Below the pieces are notes generated by a model, which worked only from the letters and a program-made list of their open reading frames with translations, was not told the origin of the DNA and made no database searches. From contig CANGHK010000021.1 in the NCBI GenBank assembly GCA_947453625.1, positions 1-64,000 of the forward strand: 64,000 bases of DNA, in the 5' to 3' direction. The stretch's first letter is position 1, and each line of letters starts with the position of its first letter. Source of the DNA: Burkholderiales bacterium (GTDB lineage: Bacteria > Pseudomonadota > Gammaproteobacteria > Burkholderiales > Burkholderiaceae_C). The position numbers and the translations under genes were made by a program. Below, piece after piece: positions 1 to 11,727 of the stretch.

Positions 1-892
1 GGGGCAGTTCATTGCGTTTTATGGGGCATTCGCCCAGGTCATGGGTGCGGTGATGGGGCTGTCTGAAACCTTGCTTCGGGTGCTCAACCTCATCCCCGTC
101 TATGAGCGCGTCAAGCCGGTACTGGAAGCTGCCCCGGAAGCCGAAGAAGGCCGCAGCCATCCTGGGGAGTTGCAGGGGCAGATCGAATTGGTGGGCCTGT
201 CGTTCCGGTACAGCGCCGAGGGTCCGGCGGTGCTCGACAACCTGTCGGTGATGATTCGCCCCGGCAGTTTCGTTGCCGTGGTGGGCGCCAGCGGTTCGGG
301 CAAATCGACATTGCTGCGCTGCCTTCTCGGTTTCGAGAAACCGTCGGCTGGCGGGATCTTGTTCGACAACCAGAACTTGGCCGACCTGGACGCCCGTGCA
401 GTTCGGCGCCAGATGGGCGTGGTGCTACAGCACAGCCAGGTGATGCCGGGGGACGTTTTCAGCAACATCGTGGGAACCACAAGGCTGACCATCGACGATG
501 CCTGGGCTGCGGCGCGCTCTTGCGGCCTGGAGGCCGACATCAAGGCGATGCCTATGGGCATGCACACGGTGATCTCGGAAGGCGGTAACACCTTGTCGGG
601 AGGCCAGCGCCAGCGCATCCTGATTGCGCGCGCCCTCGTGCAGCGCCCTCGAATCCTGCTGTTCGACGAAGCGACGAGTGCGCTCGACAACACCACGCAG
701 GCGGTGGTCACCCGCAGCCTGGCCGAGTTGCGTGCAACCCGCGTGGTCATTGCCCACCGGCTCACCACGATCGCGCAGGCTGACTTGATCCTGGTGATGG
801 ACAAGGGTCGGATCGTGCAGCGTGGCAACTACGCCGAACTGATGGGCCAGCCAGGTGTGTTTCGGAACTTGGCGGGGCGGCAACTTGTTTGA
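1..892 (+). CDS. NHLP-type peptide/bacteriocin ABC exporter, ATPase end (5' end outside window)
   Basis: The reading frame is open from the first bases of the window, so this is the 3' part of a larger gene. The visible part begins with the end of a membrane domain and continues into a complete ABC ATPase: Walker A GASGSGKST (about nt 281-307), signature LSGGQRQR (about nt 595-618), Walker B ILLFDEATSALD and an H-loop in VIAHRLTT. The linker style (a Gln-Phe-rich segment, then ETLLRVLNLIPVYERVKP) is typical of the permease/ATPase subunit of NHLP (nitrile hydratase leader peptide) bacteriocin exporters, which fuse permease and ATPase. The family assignment is inference, because the N-terminal half (peptidase, cyclic-nucleotide-binding or membrane domains) cannot be seen. 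The cyclotransferase gene follows on the same strand. Confidence 0.8.
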   Translation, partial: GQFIAFYGAFAQVMGAVMGLSETLLRVLNLIPVYERVKPVLEAAPEAEEGRSHPGELQGQIELVGLSFRYSAEGPAVLDNLSVMIRPGSFVAVVGASGSGKSTLLRCLLGFEKPSAGGILFDNQNLADLDARAVRRQMGVVLQHSQVMPGDVFSNIVGTTRLTIDDAWAAARSCGLEADIKAMPMGMHTVISEGGNTLSGGQRQRILIARALVQRPRILLFDEATSALDNTTQAVVTRSLAELRATRVVIAHRLTTIAQADLILVMDKGRIVQRGNYAELMGQPGVFRNLAGRQLV

Positions 893-983
893 GCCCAGGG
901 GATGTCTGCGCGCATCCGCCCAATTAGCCTCTGCCGAGTCACAAGAGTGTGGCCATCAGGACGCTTGCAAGCGCACTTGCACT

Positions 984-1814
984 GTGCCTGCCCGTCAAGC
1001 CATCCATCCGGTGGCGACCGCGCGCCGCCATTGCTTGCTCTCGCCCCTGGCCATGCTGCTCGACGTGCCCCTGGCTGCCCGTGGCGAACTGACGGGCGCG
1101 GCCGACCTGCCCGGTTACACCTACAAGGTCGTGCGAAGCTACCCGCACGACGCCCAAGCCTTCACCCAAGGCCTGTTCTATCTGGAAGGCTACCTCTACG
1201 AGAGCACGGGGCTGCTGGGGCGCTCATACGTGCGCAAGGTCAGTCTGGAAACGGGCCGGGTGGTGCAGCAGGTCAAGCTCCCGTCCGATGTGTTCGGAGA
1301 GGGTCTCAGCCACTGGGGCCAACGCCTGATCTGCATCACCTGGACCACCCAACTCGGCCTTGAGTTCAACCTGCAGACCTTCGCCTTCGAGAAGCGATTC
1401 ACCTACCCCGGCGAGGGCTGGGGCCTTGCGCGCAGCGACAGCGAACTCATCATGAGCAACGGCAGCGCCGAGCTGCGCTTTCTCGATCCCATTAGCCTCC
1501 AGGAGAAGCGCCGTTTACGCGTGACTGCCCTCGGAAAGCCGGTGACCCTGCTGAACGAACTGGAGTGGGTCAAGGGCGAGATCTTTGCCAATGTCTGGCA
1601 AACCGACAAGATCGCCCGGATCGATCCTGGAACAGGCCAGGTCAAGGGCTGGATCCAACTTGACGGCTTGCTCTCGGCGGACGACCGCGCGGGTGCTCAG
1701 CGCGACGTGCTCAACGGCATCGCCTACGACGCGGCGACAGACCGGCTCTTCGTCACCGGCAAGCTTTGGCCTCGGCTGTACGAGATCAGGTTGGTTCGTT
1801 TGCGAGGTCAATAG
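984..1814 (+). CDS. Glutaminyl-peptide cyclotransferase (glutamine cyclotransferase family)
   Basis: Beta-propeller glutamine cyclotransferase (plant/bacterial type, Glu_cyclase_2). It turns N-terminal Gln of peptides into pyroglutamate with release of ammonia. Family hallmarks are visible: SYPHDAQAFTQGL near the mature N-terminus, YLYESTGLLGRSYVRKV, FGEGLSHWGQRL, GEGWGLARSDSELIMSNG, LNELEWVKGEIFANVWQTD and LNGIAYDAATDRLFVTGKLW. The start is uncertain. A GTG at 984 gives a basic stretch followed by a hydrophobic segment ending PLAA, which would suit export; the frame is also open back to a GTG at 855 inside the upstream ABC gene, and an ATG lies at 1053. No strong Shine-Dalgarno site supports any of them. 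The gene follows the peptide exporter gene closely on the same strand, so it may modify the exported peptide (inference). Confidence 0.85.
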   Translation: MPARQAIHPVATARRHCLLSPLAMLLDVPLAARGELTGAADLPGYTYKVVRSYPHDAQAFTQGLFYLEGYLYESTGLLGRSYVRKVSLETGRVVQQVKLPSDVFGEGLSHWGQRLICITWTTQLGLEFNLQTFAFEKRFTYPGEGWGLARSDSELIMSNGSAELRFLDPISLQEKRRLRVTALGKPVTLLNELEWVKGEIFANVWQTDKIARIDPGTGQVKGWIQLDGLLSADDRAGAQRDVLNGIAYDAATDRLFVTGKLWPRLYEIRLVRLRGQ

Positions 1815-1831
1815 CAGGGTGCTGAGGCAGT

Positions 1832-1866
1832 CCGGAAATTACTCGTGGAAGGCAAGTGATTTCCGG
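1832..1866. terminator. Hairpin between convergent genes, probable terminator
   Basis: A 12-bp stem (CCGGAAATTACT pairing with AGTGATTTCCGG, one G-T wobble) with an 11-nt loop lies 17 bp after the cyclotransferase stop codon and just beyond the end of the oppositely oriented cyclase gene. There is no T-tract on either side, so termination is inferred from stem strength and convergent context. Confidence 0.5.
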
Positions 1867-1946
1867 CCATCGGGTGAGGACTGGCCTGCATGTGTTTGCC
1901 GGCGTCGACGAGGTCGGATCGTTGCCCGAGCCTCCAGGGACTGCGA

Positions 1947-2798
1947 TCAGCGCACGCCGGCTTTCCAACGCAGGTCGTCGAGAAACACGTCGGCGTTGTT
2001 CTTGGCGCTGTTCCACCTGTCTTTCGGCATCACCTTGATGATCGCGTTCAATTCGTCGGTCGCCGCACTGATGCGTTGGGCCCGGGCAAGCCAGAACCAA
2101 TTGACGGCTTTTCCAATGTCAAACAAAGGGCTGGTTTTATCGGCGTATATCCGGCCGAGTTTCAAGGCCGCGTCGCCATCGAGTTGCTGAGCGCTGGGCT
2201 CGAGCGCCTTGATGTCCTGCTCGATTTTTTTCCGGTCCGGGGCTTGGGTTTTTGGTGGCGCCGCGACGCGGACCGCGCCCTCTATTTTTATCGCCCAAAC
2301 CTGGATCGGATCGGAGATGTTTTTCAGCTCGACCTCGCCGCGGTCTTCGAACACCACCTCCTTCAGTTTGCGGTGCGACAGGCCGTGAACTTCGGCGCCG
2401 ATCGCGACGCCGCCCTGGTCAGCAATGCTCTCCAACCGAGCCGCGATGTTCACACCATCGCCGAGCAGATCGCCATTGTCCTGCGTGTAGACCTCGCCAA
2501 CGTTGATGCCGAAGCGCCAGCGCATCTGCAATTTGCCAGTCGTCCGGTTGCGCGCATGGAACTGGTTCTGGCACTTGATCGCAAAGCCGACGGCCAGCGC
2601 CGGGCTGCTGAACTCGGCAAGCACCGCATCGCCGGCCGTGTTGAAGATGCGGCCGCCATGCTCCTGGATCAGCGGATCCATGATTTTCCGGCATTCCTGA
2701 AGGGCCGCGATGGCTCGGACTTCGTCCTCGCCTATCATCCTGCTGTAGCCGCAGACATCGGAGGCGAGGATGGTTGTGAGCTTGGTGATGGGTGTCAT
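1947..2798 (-). CDS. Class III adenylate/guanylate cyclase
   Basis: 283 residues. An N-terminal class III nucleotide cyclase domain covers about residues 5-175. Catalytic features are present: metal-binding Asp14 (ASDVCGYS) and Asp57 (GDAVLAEF), and the GDGVNIAARLE motif with transition-state Asn117 and Arg121. The C-terminal 110 residues are helical and unassigned; they look Sel1-like at most. No transmembrane segment is visible, so the protein should be cytosolic. It is the last gene of a same-strand series with an HD-domain protein, a reductase and a membrane protein with a cyclic-nucleotide-binding domain, so its product may be read locally. ATP versus GTP specificity cannot be decided by eye. 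There is no Shine-Dalgarno site; an AT-only hairpin sits just upstream of the ATG. Confidence 0.9.
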   Translation of the reverse strand: MTPITKLTTILASDVCGYSRMIGEDEVRAIAALQECRKIMDPLIQEHGGRIFNTAGDAVLAEFSSPALAVGFAIKCQNQFHARNRTTGKLQMRWRFGINVGEVYTQDNGDLLGDGVNIAARLESIADQGGVAIGAEVHGLSHRKLKEVVFEDRGEVELKNISDPIQVWAIKIEGAVRVAAPPKTQAPDRKKIEQDIKALEPSAQQLDGDAALKLGRIYADKTSPLFDIGKAVNWFWLARAQRISAATDELNAIIKVMPKDRWNSAKNNADVFLDDLRWKAGVR

Positions 2799-2801
2799 TT
2801 T

Positions 2802-2821
2802 ATAATATATATCTATATTAT
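2802..2821. promoter_or_regulatory. AT-only inverted repeat directly upstream of the cyclase start
   Basis: ATAATATA-TATC-TATATTAT: a perfect 8-bp inverted repeat with a 4-nt loop in which 19 of 20 bases are A or T. It ends 4 bp before the cyclase ATG and replaces the expected Shine-Dalgarno region. It could be a weak RNA hairpin over the start, an operator or part of a promoter; the sequence alone does not decide. Confidence 0.4.
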
Positions 2822-2944
2822 TTACCAGGGTTCAGGGCTTGGGCAGGCGTCCTGAAAATCATGTGAAAGTGAATCTTGGCAGTGGCAGGCGAGTGCCGTT
2901 TAATAATCATTGATAATTCAATCGCCATTTCAAGGGAATCAACA

Positions 2945-3949
2945 TCAGCCCGATTCGCACTGCGCGATTGTGGCATGCAGTGAGGCCCCCCAGCGACGGC
3001 CCTCAGCGTGTGCATTCAGCGCCTCGAATCCGACCCCGACCAGCGGTTCGACCACCAGGCGGTAGAACCGTGGGAAGCGGGCGACCAGATCGCGATAACT
3101 GGTGAGACCGTCGGCCTGGGCTCGGCCGCAGTCGACGAACTCTTCATAGAGCGCAGGTAATTTTTGCAGATAGGCCGGGTCCGCGAGTTGACCGATCAGG
3201 TCGGCCGAGCGGACGAGATCTTGCCATTGGAACCTGCTGCGGGGTTGACTTCGCACCTCCTCCGGCACCGGGAAGCGCGTGCTCTCGATATAGGTAGCCA
3301 GTATCTCGGCGTCGATCCAGGGGTTGTGGGCGAACAGCAGGCGGACATGGGCCACACCACGGTCGACATGTATGGGGGTCAGGAATGCATCGGTGGCGCC
3401 GCTTGGAAGTTGTCGCCAGCCACCCAGTCCATCGGACACCAGCGACCCTTCGATGTCGCCGGGCAGCAAATCCTTGACGTAACCGATGTCGTGAAACAGC
3501 AATGCGACGATGTAGTGGAGCCATTCCTGAGCCGACACCGGATCACCCAGTGCTTGCTTGCCTCTGAGAATCTGCTGGCCCACCAGGCAGACCAGCAGCG
3601 TGTGCTCGCAGTTGTGGTAGGGCGCATCGGTTCGTGCAAGTACGGTGATGGCCTGTTCTGCGGCGTCGAGCATGGCTCTCAATCGCAGCGATTCACGGTC
3701 GCCAAAAGCGGCTTCGAAGTGCAGCCTCAACTTGGATTGGATTCGATCGATCGAAGTTGTCGCCGAACCCTGTCCAGTGATGGTACCCGTGGGCCGCAAC
3801 CGAGGTTCGTCAGGCGCTTGCATCATGTCCGTCTGGTCTGACCAGGGGTCGAATCCCTGCCGCGGGGTCACCTGTTCGCGACCTCTGTTGCGCGACGCGC
3901 AATCTGGCGATGGGTCGGCGTCCGACCTCGACTCGACTTCCGTGGTCAT
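2945..3949 (-). CDS. HD-domain metal-dependent phosphohydrolase-like protein
   Basis: 334 residues. The HD superfamily signature is clear: His116 in HNCEHT and the His153-Asp154 pair in LLFHDIGY, a spacing usual for HD metal sites, followed by further conserved His/Asp positions (TPIHVDRGVAHVRLLF). The first 60 residues are polar, low in structure and probably disordered; Met42 or Met43 are possible alternative starts. No GYP signature or transmembrane segment is visible. HD proteins include cyclic-nucleotide and nucleotide phosphohydrolases; a role in turning over the product of the adjacent cyclase is conceivable but unproven. It lies between the reductase gene (233-bp gap) and the cyclase gene (146-bp gap), all on the minus strand. 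Confidence 0.8.
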   Translation of the reverse strand: MTTEVESRSDADPSPDCASRNRGREQVTPRQGFDPWSDQTDMMQAPDEPRLRPTGTITGQGSATTSIDRIQSKLRLHFEAAFGDRESLRLRAMLDAAEQAITVLARTDAPYHNCEHTLLVCLVGQQILRGKQALGDPVSAQEWLHYIVALLFHDIGYVKDLLPGDIEGSLVSDGLGGWRQLPSGATDAFLTPIHVDRGVAHVRLLFAHNPWIDAEILATYIESTRFPVPEEVRSQPRSRFQWQDLVRSADLIGQLADPAYLQKLPALYEEFVDCGRAQADGLTSYRDLVARFPRFYRLVVEPLVGVGFEALNAHAEGRRWGASLHATIAQCESG

Positions 3950-4084
3950 GGCGTCAATTCCGGTTTCGCTGCCAGGTCAGACCCGACGGGGTTGTTTGAC
4001 GCAGCCCAAAGCGCTGCAAGACTCACGCTGACGATGGTGTACACGAAAAAACCTTAAAAACTGGTTATGTCATATTGAACTATA

Positions 4085-4101
4085 AACTCATTTTTTGAGT
4101 T
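4085..4101. terminator. Small hairpin downstream of the reductase gene
   Basis: AACTCA-TTTTT-TGAGTT, a perfect 6-bp inverted repeat 82 bp beyond the reductase stop codon, inside an AT-rich stretch (about 4030-4100). It is a weak terminator candidate for the reductase transcript. The AT-rich stretch is also the likely promoter area of the HD gene. Confidence 0.25.
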
Positions 4102-4182
4102 CGCGTGAAAGTTCATTTGCCCGGTGCATCAGGTCTGTGCCGTGCACAGCCACCGAGCGACCCCGCAGCGATTGGGCAACGC

Positions 4183-5889
4183 TCAAGCGTCAAGGACGAG
4201 TCGGGTGCCGAGGCCGCGCGCGACACAAGCCAGGACATAGCCGTCGAGCAAGTCACTTTCGCTGAGTGCCCGCTGATCGTCCATTTCGACGCCACCCTCG
4301 GTCTTCTTGATCTTGCAGGTGCCGCAGTTGCCCGCCCTGCAGGAACTTTCCATCTTGATGCCGTTCGCTTCGGCCAGATCCAGGATGCAGTCCTCGGTCC
4401 CTGCCTGCAAGGTCTTGCCACTGCGCGAAAAGACGATGCTCAGCTTGCCGGAGGCGACCACTGCCGGGGCGTCGCCTGGTGTCGCTGCGGGTTGGGCCGC
4501 GACGGGTGGCGCAACCACCGCGGTCTTGGCCCGTGCTGGCGGGACTGACGCGCCCTGGGGTGCCACCGGTGCGCTCCCGAAACTCTCCTCGTGGTAGGCG
4601 TGCATCGGGTGGCCCAGTTGCTCCAGCAGGCTGCGGATCGCAGCCATGTAGCCGGCCGGGCCGCAGACGAACACGGTACGCTCCGCATAGTCAGGCACAA
4701 GGGCGCGCAGGAGCTCTTCATTGAAGCGCGAGACGGGCCCGTTCCAGGTCTGTCCGGGGTTGACCGTGCTGGGGACGATGCCAAGCTTGAGCTTGGGCCC
4801 GAAACGGCTGGCGAGATAAGCCAGTTCGCGCTCGAAGACGATGTCGGCCGGCGAGCGGACGTTGTTGATGAATGCGATGTTCGCAGGCGACTGCGTGTCC
4901 ACCAGCCAGCGCAGCATGGACATGACGGGCGTGACGCCGCTTCCGCCGCCAATCAACAAGAGCTTTTCGGCCGGGGCGTCGAAGCAGCTGAAGTCGCCGT
5001 TCGGCCCCGAAAGATTGAACTCAAAGTCGACGACCATGTTGTCGTGCAGCCAGTTCGAGACCAGCCCGCCTGCCACCCGCTTGACCGTGATGGACAGGCC
5101 ATGCGGCCGCGACGGTGAGGACGAGATCGTATAGCTGCGGCGAACCGTCTTGCCCCCTATCGGTAGTTCGAGGGTGACGAACTGTCCGGGTTTGAAATTG
5201 AAAAGAACCGGCACCGCCGCCTGAAAGACGAAGGTCCTGACGTCGTGGGTTTCAGGAATGACGGCGATGCACCGGACCGGCGTGCGTCCCCTGCGCCAGG
5301 CGTGCTCAGGCGAAAACACCAGCCCCGCGGCCGGCCATATCGACAAGTCAGCACCAGCGAACTCGGTTGTTGGCGCGACCTCGGATTCCTTGTCTTGGCT
5401 GGCACGGGCCTGAAGGTTCTCGCGGGTGTCCTCGCTATTGAATGCCGACAGCAGCGCAGCCAGGGTTTGACGGGCTTGCTGCTTGGCAGGCGTCGTGGTC
5501 GACAGGCCCAGCCGCTGCAGGATGGGCGACGGGTTGTCGAGGATTCGATCGATGAAGAGCTCTATGGCGCCACTGATTTCAGGTCTGGCGAGGCCAGAGT
5601 CCCCGCGCATCACCCCATCGAGCTTTTCCGTCAAGTTCTGACTGTCGCGCTTGAGGGCCTTCTTCTGGTAGTCTTTCCACAGCCCGCTGAAATCGGTGCG
5701 AAGCCTGTGCAGGCCCTCCTGGAGGACCAAGACCTTGCACCAGGACGGGTCATCGACCAGGTCATGGAATTTTCGGAGTTCGCGCGCGTTCAGGCCATCA
5801 TTGGCGTCCGCGACGAACAGGAATGCGGCGAACAGCAATTGCGCCGCAAGGGCGGCGTTGCCATTCTGGGTCTCTTTGACATCAGACAT
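4183..5889 (-). CDS. Fused TerB-like / ferredoxin reductase / [2Fe-2S] ferredoxin protein
   Basis: 568 residues in three parts. Residues 1-130 form a helical domain with a TerB-like DANDGLNARE segment (28-37). Residues 200-430 form an FAD/NAD(P) reductase of the ferredoxin-NADP+ reductase superfamily: flavin motif RSYTISSSP (251-259), nucleotide-binding GGGSGVTP (314-321) and VFVCGPAGY near 410. After an Ala/Pro linker, residues 485-568 form a plant-type [2Fe-2S] ferredoxin with Cys517, Cys522, Cys525 and Cys555. The reductase plus C-terminal ferredoxin resembles NADH oxidoreductases such as Hcr; the N-terminal domain is the unusual part. It lies 36 bp downstream of the polyferredoxin gene, probably in one operon, and is the obvious candidate to pass NAD(P)H electrons to it. 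Confidence 0.9.
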   Translation of the reverse strand: MSDVKETQNGNAALAAQLLFAAFLFVADANDGLNARELRKFHDLVDDPSWCKVLVLQEGLHRLRTDFSGLWKDYQKKALKRDSQNLTEKLDGVMRGDSGLARPEISGAIELFIDRILDNPSPILQRLGLSTTTPAKQQARQTLAALLSAFNSEDTRENLQARASQDKESEVAPTTEFAGADLSIWPAAGLVFSPEHAWRRGRTPVRCIAVIPETHDVRTFVFQAAVPVLFNFKPGQFVTLELPIGGKTVRRSYTISSSPSRPHGLSITVKRVAGGLVSNWLHDNMVVDFEFNLSGPNGDFSCFDAPAEKLLLIGGGSGVTPVMSMLRWLVDTQSPANIAFINNVRSPADIVFERELAYLASRFGPKLKLGIVPSTVNPGQTWNGPVSRFNEELLRALVPDYAERTVFVCGPAGYMAAIRSLLEQLGHPMHAYHEESFGSAPVAPQGASVPPARAKTAVVAPPVAAQPAATPGDAPAVVASGKLSIVFSRSGKTLQAGTEDCILDLAEANGIKMESSCRAGNCGTCKIKKTEGGVEMDDQRALSESDLLDGYVLACVARGLGTRLVLDA

Positions 5890-5925
5890 CGGGGTCTCGG
5901 CGGTGAAAATGGATCCGGCGTGACG

Positions 5926-8853
5926 TCAACCGGTGACATACCCCGCCACCACGGCGAGGATGCCCATTGCGACCGTGGCGTCACCTTCCATCAGCCAGCG
6001 CAAGCGTTCGCCGTCTATGGTGACGACGCGCAGGACGGTGGAGGAAATCCGCACGGACGCAGCGCGTGGCTTGCTGGTGATCACACCCAGTTCGCCGACG
6101 ATGGCGCCGTCACGCAGCGAGCCGACCACGGTTTCGGCGCCGTCCCGCATGACGAGGATGTCGACGCTGCCGGTTCGCAGGACAAAGGCTTCGGATGCGG
6201 GGTCGCCGGCGCGGCAGAGCCAGCCACCCTGCGGGTAGCAGCGCACCTCGGCCGAAGCTGCGATTTCCGCCAACGAGTTCAGGTTGAGTCTGCCGAATAT
6301 GTTGACCTGCGAGAGCCACAGCAACTTGGTCATCGTGTCTTGCCATTCCACGGTGTACGCTGTGCTCTGGCCGGTTTGCGCGCCAGCCTCCGGATTGGCG
6401 CCGCTGAACGACTGCGTCTGCCGCGGTGCTGGCTTGCCCGCCGATTCGCGCGGCCCGGTCAGACTGTCGACCACCTCGGCCAGCAGCCAATGTGCCGGCG
6501 CGTCGCGAATGGAGACTGAGCTTGTCCAGCTGCGCGCCAGTCCGATGTCCAGGTAGGAGATCGCCGTGAGCGCGATCGCCGCCATCAAGGGATCGTCCGC
6601 GTCGACCATCTTCTGCAGGTGAGCGGTCAGGTCGCCGCTTTGCTCGATCGCTGCGCCCAAGCGTGATTTGTCGTCTGGGGATTCGAGCCCGGCCGAACCA
6701 TCGACGGTGTTGTCGCTGCTGCCCAGCAACCGTTTGACCAATTCGGCATCCAGCGATTCGAGCCAGGTCTTGCGTGCGCCGGCCGATACCGGTGTCGACA
6801 ATGCGGCTTCGATTTCCGAGCCGGCCAGGCGCGCCATTTGCGAAGCGATGGCACGGGCTTCAACCGTGTTGCCGAGCATCAGCAGGGTGGAAAAAAGTTT
6901 GACTTGCAGGGTGTTCGTGCGCCGAGTCGTGGTCGCAATCAGCAGCGATCCGATGGCTGTCCACTGTCGGTCGGCCGTGATCTTGAAGCGCAGTCCGAAG
7001 ACGAGCGCACAAGTTTCGGCCAGCAGGTCCAACTGTCGCCTTGCACGCTCGAACATCACGCCGGTCGACCCCGTGATGCTGGACAAGGTGTTGGCGTGTT
7101 CGGACTCGGATATCTGGTAGGTTTCGCGGTAGCGCTTGAGGCTTGCCACGACCTCCGCATCAACCATCGCCTGGTCCAGCCGCTGGCCCTGTTCGAGACG
7201 TGCAATCAGCATCGGTTCGATGACACTGCGGTAGTTCGTGACGCGCAGCCAGCTCTCGTAACTGGCTGAGCCCTGCGGGCCCAGGCTGTCGTCCGCGTTG
7301 TCCAAGCTCAGCTCATTGCGCAATTGCCGGTGTTCATCATCGCTGATGCCGAGTTCGACCCGGACCTCGCGCAGCAATTCCAGGCTGTCGCTATGGTCCG
7401 TCTTGCCGGTCCGAATGGATTCCTCCAGGATGTTGCGGTAGGCCTGCAAGCGCTGATCGCGAGAGAAACTCGGCAGCGTCTTGGCCAGCACATACACCTC
7501 ATCGGCTTTGAGTTCCTCCAGCTTGCGTCCATCCAGGAATTTCGAGATGTCGACCTTGAGCTTGCGCAACTGCTCGATCAAGCTCGTGGCCAGGCCTTCG
7601 CGCCGATAACGCATCGGGCTGCGCTGTATCGCCTGCCAGAACCACAGGGTCGACAGCGCGACGATCAGGGTGTCGACCAGCCTGAGCGCGGGGGTCGGCA
7701 GCAGCAGCAGATTGGGCCGGCCACCGAAAAGGTAAAAGGTGTTGATGGAGAGGTAGGCGCTGAAGGAGAGGCAGCGGCTGATGATCTCGGCTTCGCTCAC
7801 GGGCAACTGGGCGCGCTTGACGACTTGTCTGAACAGCTTTTCCAGCGTCTTGCCCAGGACGATGGCTGCGACGACGAAGCTGCCGAGTATCAGCGGGGCA
7901 CTGAAGATCTTAGGCACGCCGATGGCGTTGCCGTTGATGAACAGGCCAGTCTTCAGGAGGTTATCGAGTTGCTCGGCTTCGTGGGTCCAGGCGCCGGAAA
8001 AGTAGTAGTCCCAGCCGCCTGAATAAAAATAATAAAAGCAATAGAAACCAATTATTATTCCGAAAAATCCGTAATAGACATGGCGCAACGCCGGATCTTC
8101 GATGTTCTCCCAATACGATCGTTCCAGATCGATGTCCGGGCAGTTGGCGATACAACCTACGCAGATGCTTCGGTCGCCTTCCGGCGTGGAGGTGCGGCAC
8201 ATCGATTGGGTGATGGTGTTGCGCGCGACATGGGCACGGCTCTCGAGCAGGCCACGGGGTTCGGTGTAGATCTTCTGGACGATGGCGATGGGACAGACAT
8301 AGTTGCACCAGGTCTTGCCGCCCCACATATACCCGACCCAGAGCGCCAGCACGATCACGCCGATGAAGAACAGCGCCAGCGCGGTGCGGTCGGAGTTGAT
8401 GAATAGAATGCGTATATTCAGCGCAAGGAACAGGAAACCGAACTGGATGTACCAGACCTTGCGCCGCCACCAACTGTCCTTGCCGATCAGCGCGAGTTGT
8501 CTCTCGACCTGACCGGTGCGGCGTATCAGCACCGATCGCTTTCGGTTCAGGCCCAGATAGCGGGGAATCTGGGACACGAAGGACAAGGGGCAGATCCGGC
8601 GCCAGGCCTCATGTCCGCCCACCATCAGGAAGAGTGGCAGCAGCGGAATGATCATGGTCCAGAAGATCCGGTTGGTCATCTGGTAGGGCGCTTGGGCAAT
8701 CACCTTGCCCTGGAAGGCGACTTCCAGCGCCTTCAGGTGAAACGGGCTGGCGACGTTGTCCGGCCGGGTGAGCTCAGGCGTGATCGGATCCCAGAACAGC
8801 GAGATGATCAGCAGCAACCAACCTGCCGTGAGCGCGGCTCGAACCAGCCGCAT
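5926..8853 (-). CDS. Membrane polyferredoxin (NosR/NapH/YccM-like) fused to a cyclic-nucleotide-binding domain
   Basis: 975 residues from the ATG at 8853, which has an AGGA ribosome site and a membrane-protein N-terminus; the frame stays open further upstream but with arginine-rich non-coding-looking sequence. Residues 1-410 hold about eight transmembrane segments and iron-sulfur motifs of the NosR/NapH/YccM type: Cys88-Pro, Cys183-x3-Cys187-Pro, Cys219, and Cys231-x2-Cys234-x3-Cys238-Pro. Residues 420-840 are a long helical cytosolic region with two copies of an IS-x2-EH-x3-L signature (503-511 and 581-590). Residues 852-965 are a cyclic-nucleotide-binding domain with the phosphate-binding cassette intact (Gly-Glu921 and Pro-Arg930-Ala-Ala-Ser). 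It probably moves electrons between a cytosolic donor and the membrane or periplasm under cyclic-nucleotide control; the function is inferred. Confidence 0.85.
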   Translation of the reverse strand: MRLVRAALTAGWLLLIISLFWDPITPELTRPDNVASPFHLKALEVAFQGKVIAQAPYQMTNRIFWTMIIPLLPLFLMVGGHEAWRRICPLSFVSQIPRYLGLNRKRSVLIRRTGQVERQLALIGKDSWWRRKVWYIQFGFLFLALNIRILFINSDRTALALFFIGVIVLALWVGYMWGGKTWCNYVCPIAIVQKIYTEPRGLLESRAHVARNTITQSMCRTSTPEGDRSICVGCIANCPDIDLERSYWENIEDPALRHVYYGFFGIIIGFYCFYYFYSGGWDYYFSGAWTHEAEQLDNLLKTGLFINGNAIGVPKIFSAPLILGSFVVAAIVLGKTLEKLFRQVVKRAQLPVSEAEIISRCLSFSAYLSINTFYLFGGRPNLLLLPTPALRLVDTLIVALSTLWFWQAIQRSPMRYRREGLATSLIEQLRKLKVDISKFLDGRKLEELKADEVYVLAKTLPSFSRDQRLQAYRNILEESIRTGKTDHSDSLELLREVRVELGISDDEHRQLRNELSLDNADDSLGPQGSASYESWLRVTNYRSVIEPMLIARLEQGQRLDQAMVDAEVVASLKRYRETYQISESEHANTLSSITGSTGVMFERARRQLDLLAETCALVFGLRFKITADRQWTAIGSLLIATTTRRTNTLQVKLFSTLLMLGNTVEARAIASQMARLAGSEIEAALSTPVSAGARKTWLESLDAELVKRLLGSSDNTVDGSAGLESPDDKSRLGAAIEQSGDLTAHLQKMVDADDPLMAAIALTAISYLDIGLARSWTSSVSIRDAPAHWLLAEVVDSLTGPRESAGKPAPRQTQSFSGANPEAGAQTGQSTAYTVEWQDTMTKLLWLSQVNIFGRLNLNSLAEIAASAEVRCYPQGGWLCRAGDPASEAFVLRTGSVDILVMRDGAETVVGSLRDGAIVGELGVITSKPRAASVRISSTVLRVVTIDGERLRWLMEGDATVAMGILAVVAGYVTG

Positions 8854-9038
8854 CTTGTTTTCCTGAATTCCTGAAAGCAAACCTGACTCCTGAATGCGGG
8901 CAACGGCGACCAGAAGGCTTGGCTGTCGTGGCGCTGCCGGGCGCCAATCGTCAAGCCGGCCCCATGCCGGGGCGACTCCCGGCGGGCCGTTGGCTTGCCC
9001 GGGCAGACCTGGGCGCGACGCCGGGCTTGTGCCGCCGT

Positions 9039-10262
9039 TTATCGAGCAGCCACGTAGCCGTCGCTGAGGGCGCCCATGAAGGCCACCAGATCGTTGACCT
9101 CGAGGGCTGTCAGCAGGTCGGGATCGCCCAATTTGCCGGCAAAGACGCCGCCTGACGACCGGTTCGCGAGGTACTGGGCCGGCACGTCGTCCCACACTCC
9201 CGCCGGTCCGTACCAGCGTTGCGGGTTGGTGGACCGTGTCGTGTAGAACATCACGACCTCCTCCAGGCTGCGGAAGACACCGTTGTGCATGTAGGTGGGC
9301 CGCTTGGCGACGTTGCGCAGTGACACGGTACGGAACTTGCCACAGAAGGTCTCGATGCTGGTCTCGGCCGCAAATTCGGCGGGAATCACCGGCTTGGGCC
9401 GGTCGGGGCCGCAGATGCCCAGGTCAAAGAAGGCCGGGTCCGCGTTTGCCGCCAGCGCCTTGTTGCGCGGCACGCCAATCGCGCGGTACTCGTTGTCGCC
9501 GAACATCGAATCGGCCGGATTGCTCGAATCCTTGTTGAATGCATGGCAGCCCGAGCATTTAGCCTTGCCGGTGAACAGGGCCAGGCCGCGCGCTTCGGGC
9601 TCGGTGTAGCTGGCCTTGCCCTGGATGACGGCGTCGAACTTCGACGTGAAGGGTTGCCCCTGAGGTGAGACCTGGAACGCGGCCAGCGATTCGCCGACCC
9701 GTGCCAGGACATTGGCCTGTTCGCTGAGCGCGGCAGCGCCGTAGACCGATTGAAACAATCCGCTGTAAGACGATGCGGTGATGCGCGCCAGCAGGGCCGC
9801 TTCGTCGGACATGTTCTGCAAGGTGGCTTTTTTCAGCGCGGCGACGGATTGGTCAGCCAGCGTGGCCTTGCCGCCGCCGTCCCACCGGAAGCCGCCCCTG
9901 GCGACGATTCTTGTATTGGGGGCCGTGCCCGTACGCAAGAAACTGAACGGCGGAACGAGCCCTGCATAGCCGGTCGATATCGAGTTGCGCGATGTCTCGA
10001 CCCCGAGGTGGCCCAGCGAGACACCGTTGCTGCCGCCGTTGGTGCCCGAATGGCCCAGCTCAGGGACATGGCAGGAGCCGCAGGACATGCCCTTGGGGTC
10101 GGACAGGTTGCTGTCGAAGTACAGCGTCTTGCCCAGAAGTTGCTTGTCCGTCAAGTTGGCGTCGGGCCCGGGAGCATCCGATCCGCCACAGGCCGCCAGC
10201 AGCAACAGGCTGGCGTAAATCAGGTGGCGCACCCGTGGTGCGCTGGCAAATTTCTTGAACAC
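9039..10262 (-). CDS. Di-heme cytochrome c peroxidase / MauG-family lipoprotein
   Basis: 407 residues from a GTG start preceded by GAGGAG. A signal peptide with lipobox LLAAC (lipidated Cys25) predicts a periplasm-facing lipoprotein. There are two c-type heme sites, Cys61-x2-Cys64-His65 and Cys236-x2-Cys239-His240. The C-terminal block FRTVSLRNVAKRPTYMHNG followed by FRSLEEVVMFY is the standard signature of bacterial di-heme peroxidases and MauG-like enzymes. Peroxide reduction versus oxidation of a protein or organic substrate cannot be told apart here. It is encoded 185 bp upstream of the polyferredoxin gene on the same strand, so it may be that protein's periplasmic partner (inference). 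Confidence 0.9.
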   Translation of the reverse strand: MFKKFASAPRVRHLIYASLLLLAACGGSDAPGPDANLTDKQLLGKTLYFDSNLSDPKGMSCGSCHVPELGHSGTNGGSNGVSLGHLGVETSRNSISTGYAGLVPPFSFLRTGTAPNTRIVARGGFRWDGGGKATLADQSVAALKKATLQNMSDEAALLARITASSYSGLFQSVYGAAALSEQANVLARVGESLAAFQVSPQGQPFTSKFDAVIQGKASYTEPEARGLALFTGKAKCSGCHAFNKDSSNPADSMFGDNEYRAIGVPRNKALAANADPAFFDLGICGPDRPKPVIPAEFAAETSIETFCGKFRTVSLRNVAKRPTYMHNGVFRSLEEVVMFYTTRSTNPQRWYGPAGVWDDVPAQYLANRSSGGVFAGKLGDPDLLTALEVNDLVAFMGALSDGYVAAR

Positions 10263-10821: not shown

Positions 10822-11727
10822 TCAGGCCGGCGTTGCTGCGCCCAGGAAGCGGTCGAAGTCGGCGCAGAACCGATCCGGCAGCTCGAAATGCGGCAGCGCG
10901 CCGGTCGGGTAGACGGTGGTCTGCCAGTTCGGCCTGGCGGCGACTGCTTTGCTGCCGCGGTAGTCCGTGAAATCACCGCGCACGCCGTGCGACATCCAGA
11001 CCGGCCCCTTGAGTTGGTCGTAGACACCGTGGATGTCGGCCGAGAACAACTGGGCGGCCAGGAAGTGCAGTGGCGCGAACTCGGCGCCGGGCTGGCGCGT
11101 GGTCAGCAGGTCGTAGCGCCACAGCGCCTCGTCGATAGACTTCGCGCCCCAGGTGCGCTCCAGGAAGTAGCGGATCACCGCCGGCCGCGTCAGGCCGCGG
11201 AACAGGCCGCTGCCCCAGCCCGGTCCGCGCAGCAGTTTGTACAGCCAGGGCAGGCCGCGTGTGCTGCCGGGCGCGCCTCGCCATTCGCGCATGCCCCGGA
11301 ACCCGGTCGGGCTGACCAGCGCGAGGCGGCCGAAGCTGGCCGGCGCCTCGGCGGCGGCACGCGCCAGGAACTCGCAGCTCAGCGACAGCGCCAGCGCGTC
11401 GATCGGCCCGCTGCCACAGCGGGACTGGATCTGCGCGACTACTGCGTGCAGCGCATCGGTCATCAGGCGCGGCGTGTAGGGGCGGTCGCTGCGCTCGGAA
11501 AATCCGAAGCCCGGCAGGTCTATCGAGAAGACGCTGCGGGTGGTCCGGCAATGCGCGTGCAGCGGTGCCACCTCGGCCGCCGATCCTGCGGCGTTGACGC
11601 TGTGCACCAGCAGCAGCGGTGGGCCCCGGCCAGCGACATAGACGCTCAAGCGGCCCGCGCTGCTGTCGAACTCGAAGCGCTCGCCGCTGACGGCCGCGGG
11701 CAGCTGGGTTGCCCGCGTGGCAGCCAT
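10822..11727 (-). CDS. Alpha/beta-hydrolase fold protein
   Basis: 301 residues. The fold is indicated by LLLVHSVNAAGS (oxyanion-hole region), SIDLPGFGFSERSDRPYT and a C-terminal His in ALPHFELPDRF. The nucleophile elbow reads A-L-Ser115-L-S instead of the usual G-x-S-x-G; small residues are kept but both glycines are lost. Its start codon overlaps the stop of the tryptophan synthase-like gene (TGATG), so the two are probably translated together. The frame is open further upstream inside that gene, but only the overlapping ATG gives a normal N-terminus. The substrate is unknown. Confidence 0.8.
   Translation of the reverse strand: MAATRATQLPAAVSGERFEFDSSAGRLSVYVAGRGPPLLLVHSVNAAGSAAEVAPLHAHCRTTRSVFSIDLPGFGFSERSDRPYTPRLMTDALHAVVAQIQSRCGSGPIDALALSLSCEFLARAAAEAPASFGRLALVSPTGFRGMREWRGAPGSTRGLPWLYKLLRGPGWGSGLFRGLTRPAVIRYFLERTWGAKSIDEALWRYDLLTTRQPGAEFAPLHFLAAQLFSADIHGVYDQLKGPVWMSHGVRGDFTDYRGSKAVAARPNWQTTVYPTGALPHFELPDRFCADFDRFLGAATPA

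Follow-up and report, generated by a model that had tools for sequence, protein, structure and literature searches.

A membrane iron–sulfur protein with a cyclic-nucleotide-binding tail, and a reductase that recurs beside it, in a low-GC island of a Burkholderiales bacterium

Cyclic nucleotides gate channels, kinases and transcription factors. Here we describe a membrane iron–sulfur (Fe-S) protein, which we call PFX, that ends in a cyclic-nucleotide-binding (CNB) domain and is encoded next to a single-chain reductase, RED, in a block of five genes at positions 1,947 to 10,262 of a 64,000-nucleotide stretch of DNA from a Burkholderiales bacterium (the window: contig CANGHK010000021.1, positions 1 to 64,000, assembly GCA_947453625.1). 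Among described systems, MloK1, SLC9C1 and PKA RI-alpha likewise join a cytosolic CNB domain to a membrane or enzyme part, and their CNB fold and pocket match, whereas the regulated part in PFX would be an Fe-S electron carrier; CNB fusions of transporters are also mentioned in passages of PMC10710835. Modules of the NapH-like, NosR and RdhC kind are presumed, in passages of PMC8238504 and PMC5928378, to transfer electrons at the membrane and are paired with varied partner enzymes. PFX is like them a multi-helix membrane protein with CX3CP-type cysteines, but has in addition a cytosolic helical region and a CNB or FHA tail. Reductases of the GbcB, PaaE and BenC type share with RED the FAD, NAD and [2Fe-2S] domains in a single chain, but the RED family adds an N-terminal helical or FHA domain and its partner gene encodes a membrane protein; RED itself scores 378 bits against NF058606, below the cut-off of 500.

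The PFX family is apparently undescribed, and it is widespread. No CNB- or FHA-tailed membrane Fe-S protein was found among the literature matches listed, judged by titles and abstract openings, nor in passages of PMC10117731, which reviews second messengers in cyanobacteria. The features of the block are as follows.

9039..10262, minus strand: di-heme lipoprotein of the CCP/MauG superfamily, MbnH-like; 407 aa, GTG start, lipobox-like LAAC; PF03150 85.8 bits
5926..8880, minus strand: PFX, membrane Fe-S protein with a helical middle and a C-terminal CNB domain; 975 aa counted from ATG 8853
7558..8853, minus strand: PFX membrane core, residues 1-432; about eight predicted transmembrane helices; cysteines C88, C183, C187, C219, C231, C234 and C238
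5926..6321, minus strand: PFX CNB domain, residues ~845-975; phosphate-binding cassette GELGVITSKPRAASV (E921, R930); PF00027 53.7 bits
4183..5889, minus strand: RED, 568 aa; N-terminal helical domain (called 'TerB-like' earlier, a tentative label), FAD and NAD(P) domains, C-terminal [2Fe-2S] ferredoxin
2945..3949, minus strand: HD-domain metallohydrolase of the Npun_R2479 type; NF045583 224 bits, cut-off 400
1947..2798, minus strand: class III nucleotidyl cyclase, 283 aa; PF00211 (Guanylate_cyc) 44.8 bits; nearest solved structure 3mr7

All five open reading frames are complete and lie on the minus strand, as a sequence-only reading of the stretch had it, and characteristic motifs are present: the di-heme protein has a pair of CxxCH, the ferredoxin domain reads CRAGNCGTC, and the HD protein contains HNCEH and HDIG. 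The genes are separated by gaps of 36 bp (RED to PFX), 158-185 bp (PFX to the di-heme gene), 233 bp (RED to the HD gene) and 146 bp (HD gene to cyclase). In these gaps a pattern scan found no terminator-like site on the minus strand and, between the HD and cyclase genes, one minus-strand promoter-like site (9/12), a frequency not above chance; that the five genes form one operon is plausible. The true start of PFX is probably TTG 8880 rather than ATG 8853, because nine further residues upstream of the ATG match the start of homologues and, by our own reading, AGGAG lies just upstream of the TTG.

PFX and RED form a recurring pair

Relatives of PFX were collected by tblastn against plasmids (46 records, 8 fetched) and by a pattern scan of GTDB genomes, which gave 360 relatives, the best 80 of them by likeness to the window being used; together these make 88 relative loci, or 89 proteins with that of the window. 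Cyanobacteria account for 66 of the best 80 genome loci, PFX is patchy in proteobacteria, and none was found in viral contigs. A RED gene, counted when it lay close by, directly 3' of PFX and on the same strand (one, in L106, was added by hand), accompanies PFX in 26 of the 88 loci: 16 of the 17 non-cyanobacterial and 10 of the 71 cyanobacterial ones. Recurrence of the neighbours beside PFX, the check proposed earlier, holds for the reductase, in proteobacterial, SAR324 and cyanobacterial loci, and not for the full set of five genes, which was seen in this island only. That homologues of PFX usually stand without these neighbours had been named as what would count against the module, and 62 of the 88 lack an adjoining reductase; in 48 of these 62 the sequence extends for 2.5 kb or more downstream. 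Cumulatively, a recurring, signal-linked RED–PFX electron-transfer pair is supported.

In RED, Pfam recognises Fer2, NAD_binding_1 and FAD_binding_6, in keeping with the reductase and ferredoxin parts of the fusion proposed at first; the TerB-like part finds no Pfam match. The reductases of the non-cyanobacterial loci have one N-terminal domain in common, as detected by a profile that was built from these same proteins and serves to group them. All ten cyanobacterial reductases found carry FHA, counting a piece in L106 (4/4 of those scanned by Pfam, L040 by NCBIfam FHA models, the others by a custom profile). Genes for Ser/Thr kinases lie 0-6.1 kb from PFX in 6 of these 10 FHA-reductase loci vs 2 of the 78 others (p=1e-5), in a comparison that has no ancestry correction, includes three sisters, takes its profile from two plasmids of the same strain and counts a weaker match in L087. 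On those plasmids (L040 and L042, Leptolyngbya boryana), a tail-less PFX core, an FHA-reductase and a Ser/Thr kinase annotated with WD-40 repeats stand in a row. The reductase frame of L106 (5873-8240), from a metagenome-assembled genome, is split into three open reading frames.

Seven cysteines of the PFX core are kept in 89/89 sequences, including that of the window. The canonical CX2CX2CX3C motif occurs in none of the 89; the window protein has one atypical C-x11-C-x2-C-x3-C, and its Fer4_5 (PF12801) match reaches 19.2 bits against a cut-off of 22, which is exceeded in L039 (24.7), L043 (28.6) and L060 (23.2), the other relatives scanned falling below it. One Fe-S cluster, perhaps two, is likely. 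The term polyferredoxin, used for this protein at first, is generous. The assignment of PFX to the NosR/NapH type did not survive the motif tests (two CX3CP, two [4Fe-4S] motifs, FMN motif), and we reject membership on these grounds. The window protein retains C183-C187P; its other site reads W84x3C88P, a WX3CP motif found in 89/89, and two CX3CP motifs occur in 5/89, the window among them by way of C234-C238P. The covalent FMN motif of NosR and RdhC, [ST]G[AS]Tx[ST], is absent from the window protein, the one sequence scanned for it.

AlphaFold2 models of the full-length protein (pLDDT 81.6, pTM 0.62) and of the core (pLDDT 86.7, pTM 0.86, with the cysteine loop 212-237 not confident) suggest about eight membrane helices, since hydropathy gives seven peaks and the models add a helix at about 354-382. 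The core model matched no PDB chain at E <= 0.001, in a library whose NosR/NapH content was unchecked, and the full model returned mainly CNB matches together with loose full-length ones (TM score about 0.1). With eight helices, the seven cysteines are divided between two loops that face the same side as the C-terminal tail. The loop of C88 is strongly positive (13 K/R, 3 D/E) and the six-cysteine loop is not (8 K/R, 10 D/E); because this second loop has no positive excess, we place the loops and the tail in the cytoplasm only by inference.

In the mechanism that we propose, electrons from NAD(P)H would enter the FAD of RED, pass to its [2Fe-2S] cluster and from there to a cytoplasmic, [4Fe-4S]-type cysteine site of PFX, which would hand them on through the membrane to a quinone or to an acceptor in the periplasm; in loci that encode a di-heme enzyme, this enzyme would most likely be the acceptor. 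As a regulatory port, PFX would use its cytosolic tail.

Signal domains of PFX and a possible cAMP input

By custom profiles, CNB domains are found in 73 of the 89 PFX proteins, FHA domains in 21, both in 11 and neither in 6; the profiles were built from members of the set, and Pfam agrees on those PFX scanned. The window CNB scores 53.7 bits against PF00027 (cNMP_binding; cut-off 27.5) and structurally matches the CNB domains of PKA, PKG and CRP. Its cassette GELGVITSKPRAASV aligns with GELALIYGTPRAATV of PKA RI-alpha, with PRAAS in place of PRAAT, and keeps the GE...R pocket motif (E921, R930), so that the domain is rightly called intact. Ala at that position of the cassette is the rule for a preference for cyclic AMP (cAMP) over cyclic GMP (cGMP), and the Ala in PRAAS suggests that the ligand of the window CNB would be cAMP rather than cGMP. 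The pocket motif is intact in 10/89 PFX: the window, L041, L043, L046, L057, L072, L076, L091, L106 and L118. Intact pockets are associated with an adjacent reductase (5/7 vs 8/51, p=0.0045, after 30 of the 88 loci were dropped for having no CNB or short downstream sequence).

In a tree of 60 of the 89 core sequences the window PFX is sister to that of Undibacterium flavidum (L043; support 99/93), which carries both FHA and a CNB with the intact motif and is accompanied by RED. The FHA of the sister lies between the segments that correspond to residues 805 and 829 of the window protein; the window protein has no such domain and perhaps lost it. By our own reading, the SR-xH residues of the cyanobacterial FHA domains are missing from those of the alphaproteobacterial clade, and the latter domains may for this reason be unable to read phosphothreonine. 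The main cyanobacterial PFX loci (e.g. L058, L074, L100) have no adjoining reductase and share an altered pocket (DELEVL or alike), which suggests that these proteins have a different role.

In this genome, then, the proposed regulatory port would be the CNB domain, whose pocket is intact and resembles that of PKA; cAMP from the adjoining cyclase and from a second cyclase of the island would bind it and alter the flow of electrons, and the HD protein would perhaps remove the cAMP. A cAMP-wired version of the RED–PFX pair in this genome is plausible, and we hold the reading of an electron path from RED to PFX with a cAMP-responsive port tentatively, as one that may well prove right yet falls short of being probable; the gating circuit of cyclase and HD protein is something we infer. 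A broader form of this idea, in which PFX founds a family of signal-gated carriers (360 relatives) with an Fe-S core that is fed by RED in many lineages and switched by cAMP through CNB or by phosphothreonine through FHA, the input varying and the path staying constant, and in which the window is the cAMP-wired case, supplied with a cyclase and perhaps a phosphodiesterase of its own, seems to us rather unlikely as a whole. If true, a cAMP-switched membrane electron carrier, with an FHA input in relatives, would be a new control point of second messengers over redox metabolism.

The cyclase exceeds the PF00211 cut-off (44.8 vs 21.9 bits), its alignment with 3mr7 spans SDVCG, TAGDAV and GDGVNIAARL, and it keeps the two Asp that we take to bind metal and the Asn and Arg of the GDxVNxAAR motif, whose roles we likewise assume; it is a class III cyclase, as first proposed. 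The HD protein has no Pfam match, its score of 224 bits against NF045583 compares with up to 533 in genomes of the PFX set, and its best match among solved structures has E 0.28. Residues H112, H116, H153, D154 and D250 are each shared by 95% or more of the 21 sequences aligned, that of the window included. Because the NF045583 match begins at residue 65, the protein may start further in than annotated. No paper on the function of Npun_R2479 was found by that name.

Several findings weigh against the cAMP-wired reading. The GE...R motif is gone in 63 of the 73 recognisable CNB domains. Although recurrence of the cyclase and the HD gene beside PFX had been envisaged, a cyclase lies within 10 kb in just 2 of the 88 loci (L072 and L073) and an HD gene adjoins PFX in none of them; the nearest relative, that of Undibacterium, has no cyclase within 10 kb. 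Nor does the proximity of a cyclase track the intact pocket (1/9 vs 1/79, p=0.20). In L072, which has an intact pocket and RED, a Tll0287-like/HNOBA cyclase is found at 8429-9901, 3.7 kb from PFX, and this may be chance, because 22 of the 24 genomes or records searched hold PF00211 genes anyway, up to 44 each. A role of the HD protein as a cyclic-nucleotide phosphodiesterase gained nothing from its neighbourhood in 62 loci (20 of the same phylum, two plasmids and 40 of 43 NF045583-type matches), where cyclase and CNB genes are not enriched (3/121 adjacent genes vs 5/415 others, p=0.26), and was set aside as a conclusion from gene context. The window's di-heme enzyme, judged from the tree described below, belongs to another, MbnH-like subfamily than those linked to PFX. 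Finally, the tests ignore shared ancestry, and the genome loci used are those 80, out of 360, that most resemble the window.

These results can also be read to mean that the RED–PFX pair is real while its CNB tail survives as a structural or protein-docking remnant and the island carries the cyclase and HD genes as unrelated cargo. The widespread loss of the pocket motif, the failure of either gene to recur beside PFX and the finding that HD genes lie beside cyclic-nucleotide genes no oftener than other genes do are what this account expects, as are the gaps of 146-233 bp that part the HD and cyclase genes from RED and from one another, with a promoter-like match at chance level in the one between HD gene and cyclase. 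It fits less well with the retention of Glu921 and Arg930 in the window and likewise in nine relatives, with the association of the intact pocket with an adjacent reductase, and with the presence in this island of two of the genome's three PF00211 genes. We consider a remnant tail quite possible, if somewhat doubtful.

Elsewhere, among the same-phylum loci, genes of the Npun_R2479 type were seen immediately next to a class III cyclase, at 39 bp (L198), a CNB gene read as channel-like (L205) and a CNB membrane protein (L214), and an HD locus on a Microvirga plasmid has a cyclase 1.5 kb away.

Di-heme enzymes near PFX

In the window's di-heme protein the CxxCH motifs stand at residues 61 and 236. 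Of the 16 non-cyanobacterial RED loci, 13 have a two-CxxCH gene within 6 kb of PFX, on the opposite strand in all 13; chance would give about 0.005 such neighbours per 15 kb (34 CCP_MauG genes in 17 genomes). The gene of L057 is of the DHOR type and those of L035 and L036 are CCP_MauG by Pfam; the rest resemble that of L036 by BLAST (46-89% identity). The three loci without one are L043, L044 (1.9 kb of upstream sequence) and L046, and in the cyanobacterial L055 a gene of the PFX-linked clade is found 4.9 kb away.

A di-heme partner, as proposed at the outset, thus recurs in most non-cyanobacterial loci, but an enzyme of the window's own subfamily does not recur beside PFX. In a tree of 23 di-heme proteins the window enzyme falls among those of its own bacterial family (support 99/95 for its grouping with L157) and outside the PFX-linked clade, and on this tree we reject orthology with the PFX-linked genes. 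Its subfamily is carried by 28 of 120 sampled genomes of the family, the window's own genome included. If it works with PFX, it is a separately recruited partner.

Passages of PMC3621798 describe an MbnP/MbnH pair and place the di-heme MbnH in some methanobactin gene sets, with its role given as unknown. The window enzyme is like MbnH and MauG in its CCP_MauG domain, its two CxxCH motifs and its 34-45% identity to the relatives listed; it differs from MbnH in falling below the TIGR04039 (MbnH) cut-off (90.9 vs 362.85 bits) and in having no adjacent MbnP, its neighbouring genes being PFX and an alpha/beta hydrolase.

In ten alphaproteobacterial PFX loci (L035, L036, L045, L047, L048, L050-L054), some of them on plasmids, there is a divergent set of a di-heme gene and a histidine kinase, joined in nine of the ten by a response regulator; a DAHL domain is present in the one kinase that was scanned. 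Locus L083, which bears the label Mycobacterium sp. KBS0706, is placed with the alphaproteobacterial L048 by the PFX tree and by the di-heme tree alike, and its label may be wrong.

Such two-component genes beside the di-heme gene would also be at home in a system in which PFX is a redox sensor, its membrane Fe-S core setting the state of a cytosolic CNB or FHA tail that signals onward, and the 62 PFX loci without an adjoining reductase and the degenerate pocket of most CNB tails are consistent with this. That nearly every non-cyanobacterial locus has a NAD(P)H reductase of its own immediately 3' of PFX is a better fit to a module that consumes electrons, and we regard a sensor as very improbable.

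The low-GC island and its export genes

The GC content is 0.62 over window positions 1-10,262 and 0.69 in the remainder. Sequence shared within the genus stops just after TrpB, at 11,712-11,727, in all nine relatives fetched; 20 were searched, and besides the window's own genome 13 of them gave a match to TrpB. In the nine, no copy of any of the five genes was found after TrpB, where five of the stretches end within ~3.6 kb and four reach 10 kb; in one of the latter four the alpha/beta hydrolase has a relative at 67%. Across the bacterial family, relatives of PFX at E <= 1e-15 were found in 1 of 399 genomes and relatives of the HD protein at E <= 1e-10 in 1 of 299, in each case the genome of the window only. 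Among 60 relatives, the other PFX matches fall on the CNB part, with weak core matches in G004, G045 and G019 (31-33% and 30% identity over 60-220 residues). The gene block is horizontally acquired. Two flanking genes lie within the window's part of the same island.

855..1814, plus strand: glutamine cyclotransferase-type gene, outside the module; PF05096 311 bits
1..892, plus strand: NHLP bacteriocin export ABC2 gene, truncated by the start of the contig so that its C-terminal part remains; TIGR03797 model 392-686

The left edge of the window is the end of its contig, inside this ABC2 gene, and the remainder of the gene (TIGR03797 model 2-403) ends a second contig, C17; the two contig ends overlap by exactly 41 bases. 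The part of the island on C17 occupies 64,948-86,911 (L275, L276) and contains two NHLP bacteriocin-type export systems. Leftward from the junction it encodes ABC1, HlyD, TolC, a TIGR03896-like CNB protein, a 2OG-Fe(II) oxygenase, a GAF-GAF-PAS cyclase and the second NHLP export set.

With these neighbours, the block could be the redox arm of an NHLP peptide cluster, in which RED, PFX and the MauG-type enzyme aid an oxidative change of the exported peptide and the cyclases control the cluster as a whole. The continuation of the island into export systems, oxygenase, cyclase and CNB protein speaks for this, as do the occurrence of MbnH in some methanobactin gene sets, in passages of PMC3621798 that leave its role unknown, and the PFX–RED genes of Leptolyngbya boryana, which lie near an ABC exporter annotated as a cyclic nucleotide-regulated bacteriocin/lantibiotic exporter. 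ABC exporters with a CNB match are confined, however, to the two L. boryana loci among the 88, and the alphaproteobacterial loci hold a two-component system instead, so that we think a peptide-modifying role improbable. The TIGR03896-like protein of C17 scores 141.8 bits against a cut-off of 161, and its pocket Arg is read as Pro.

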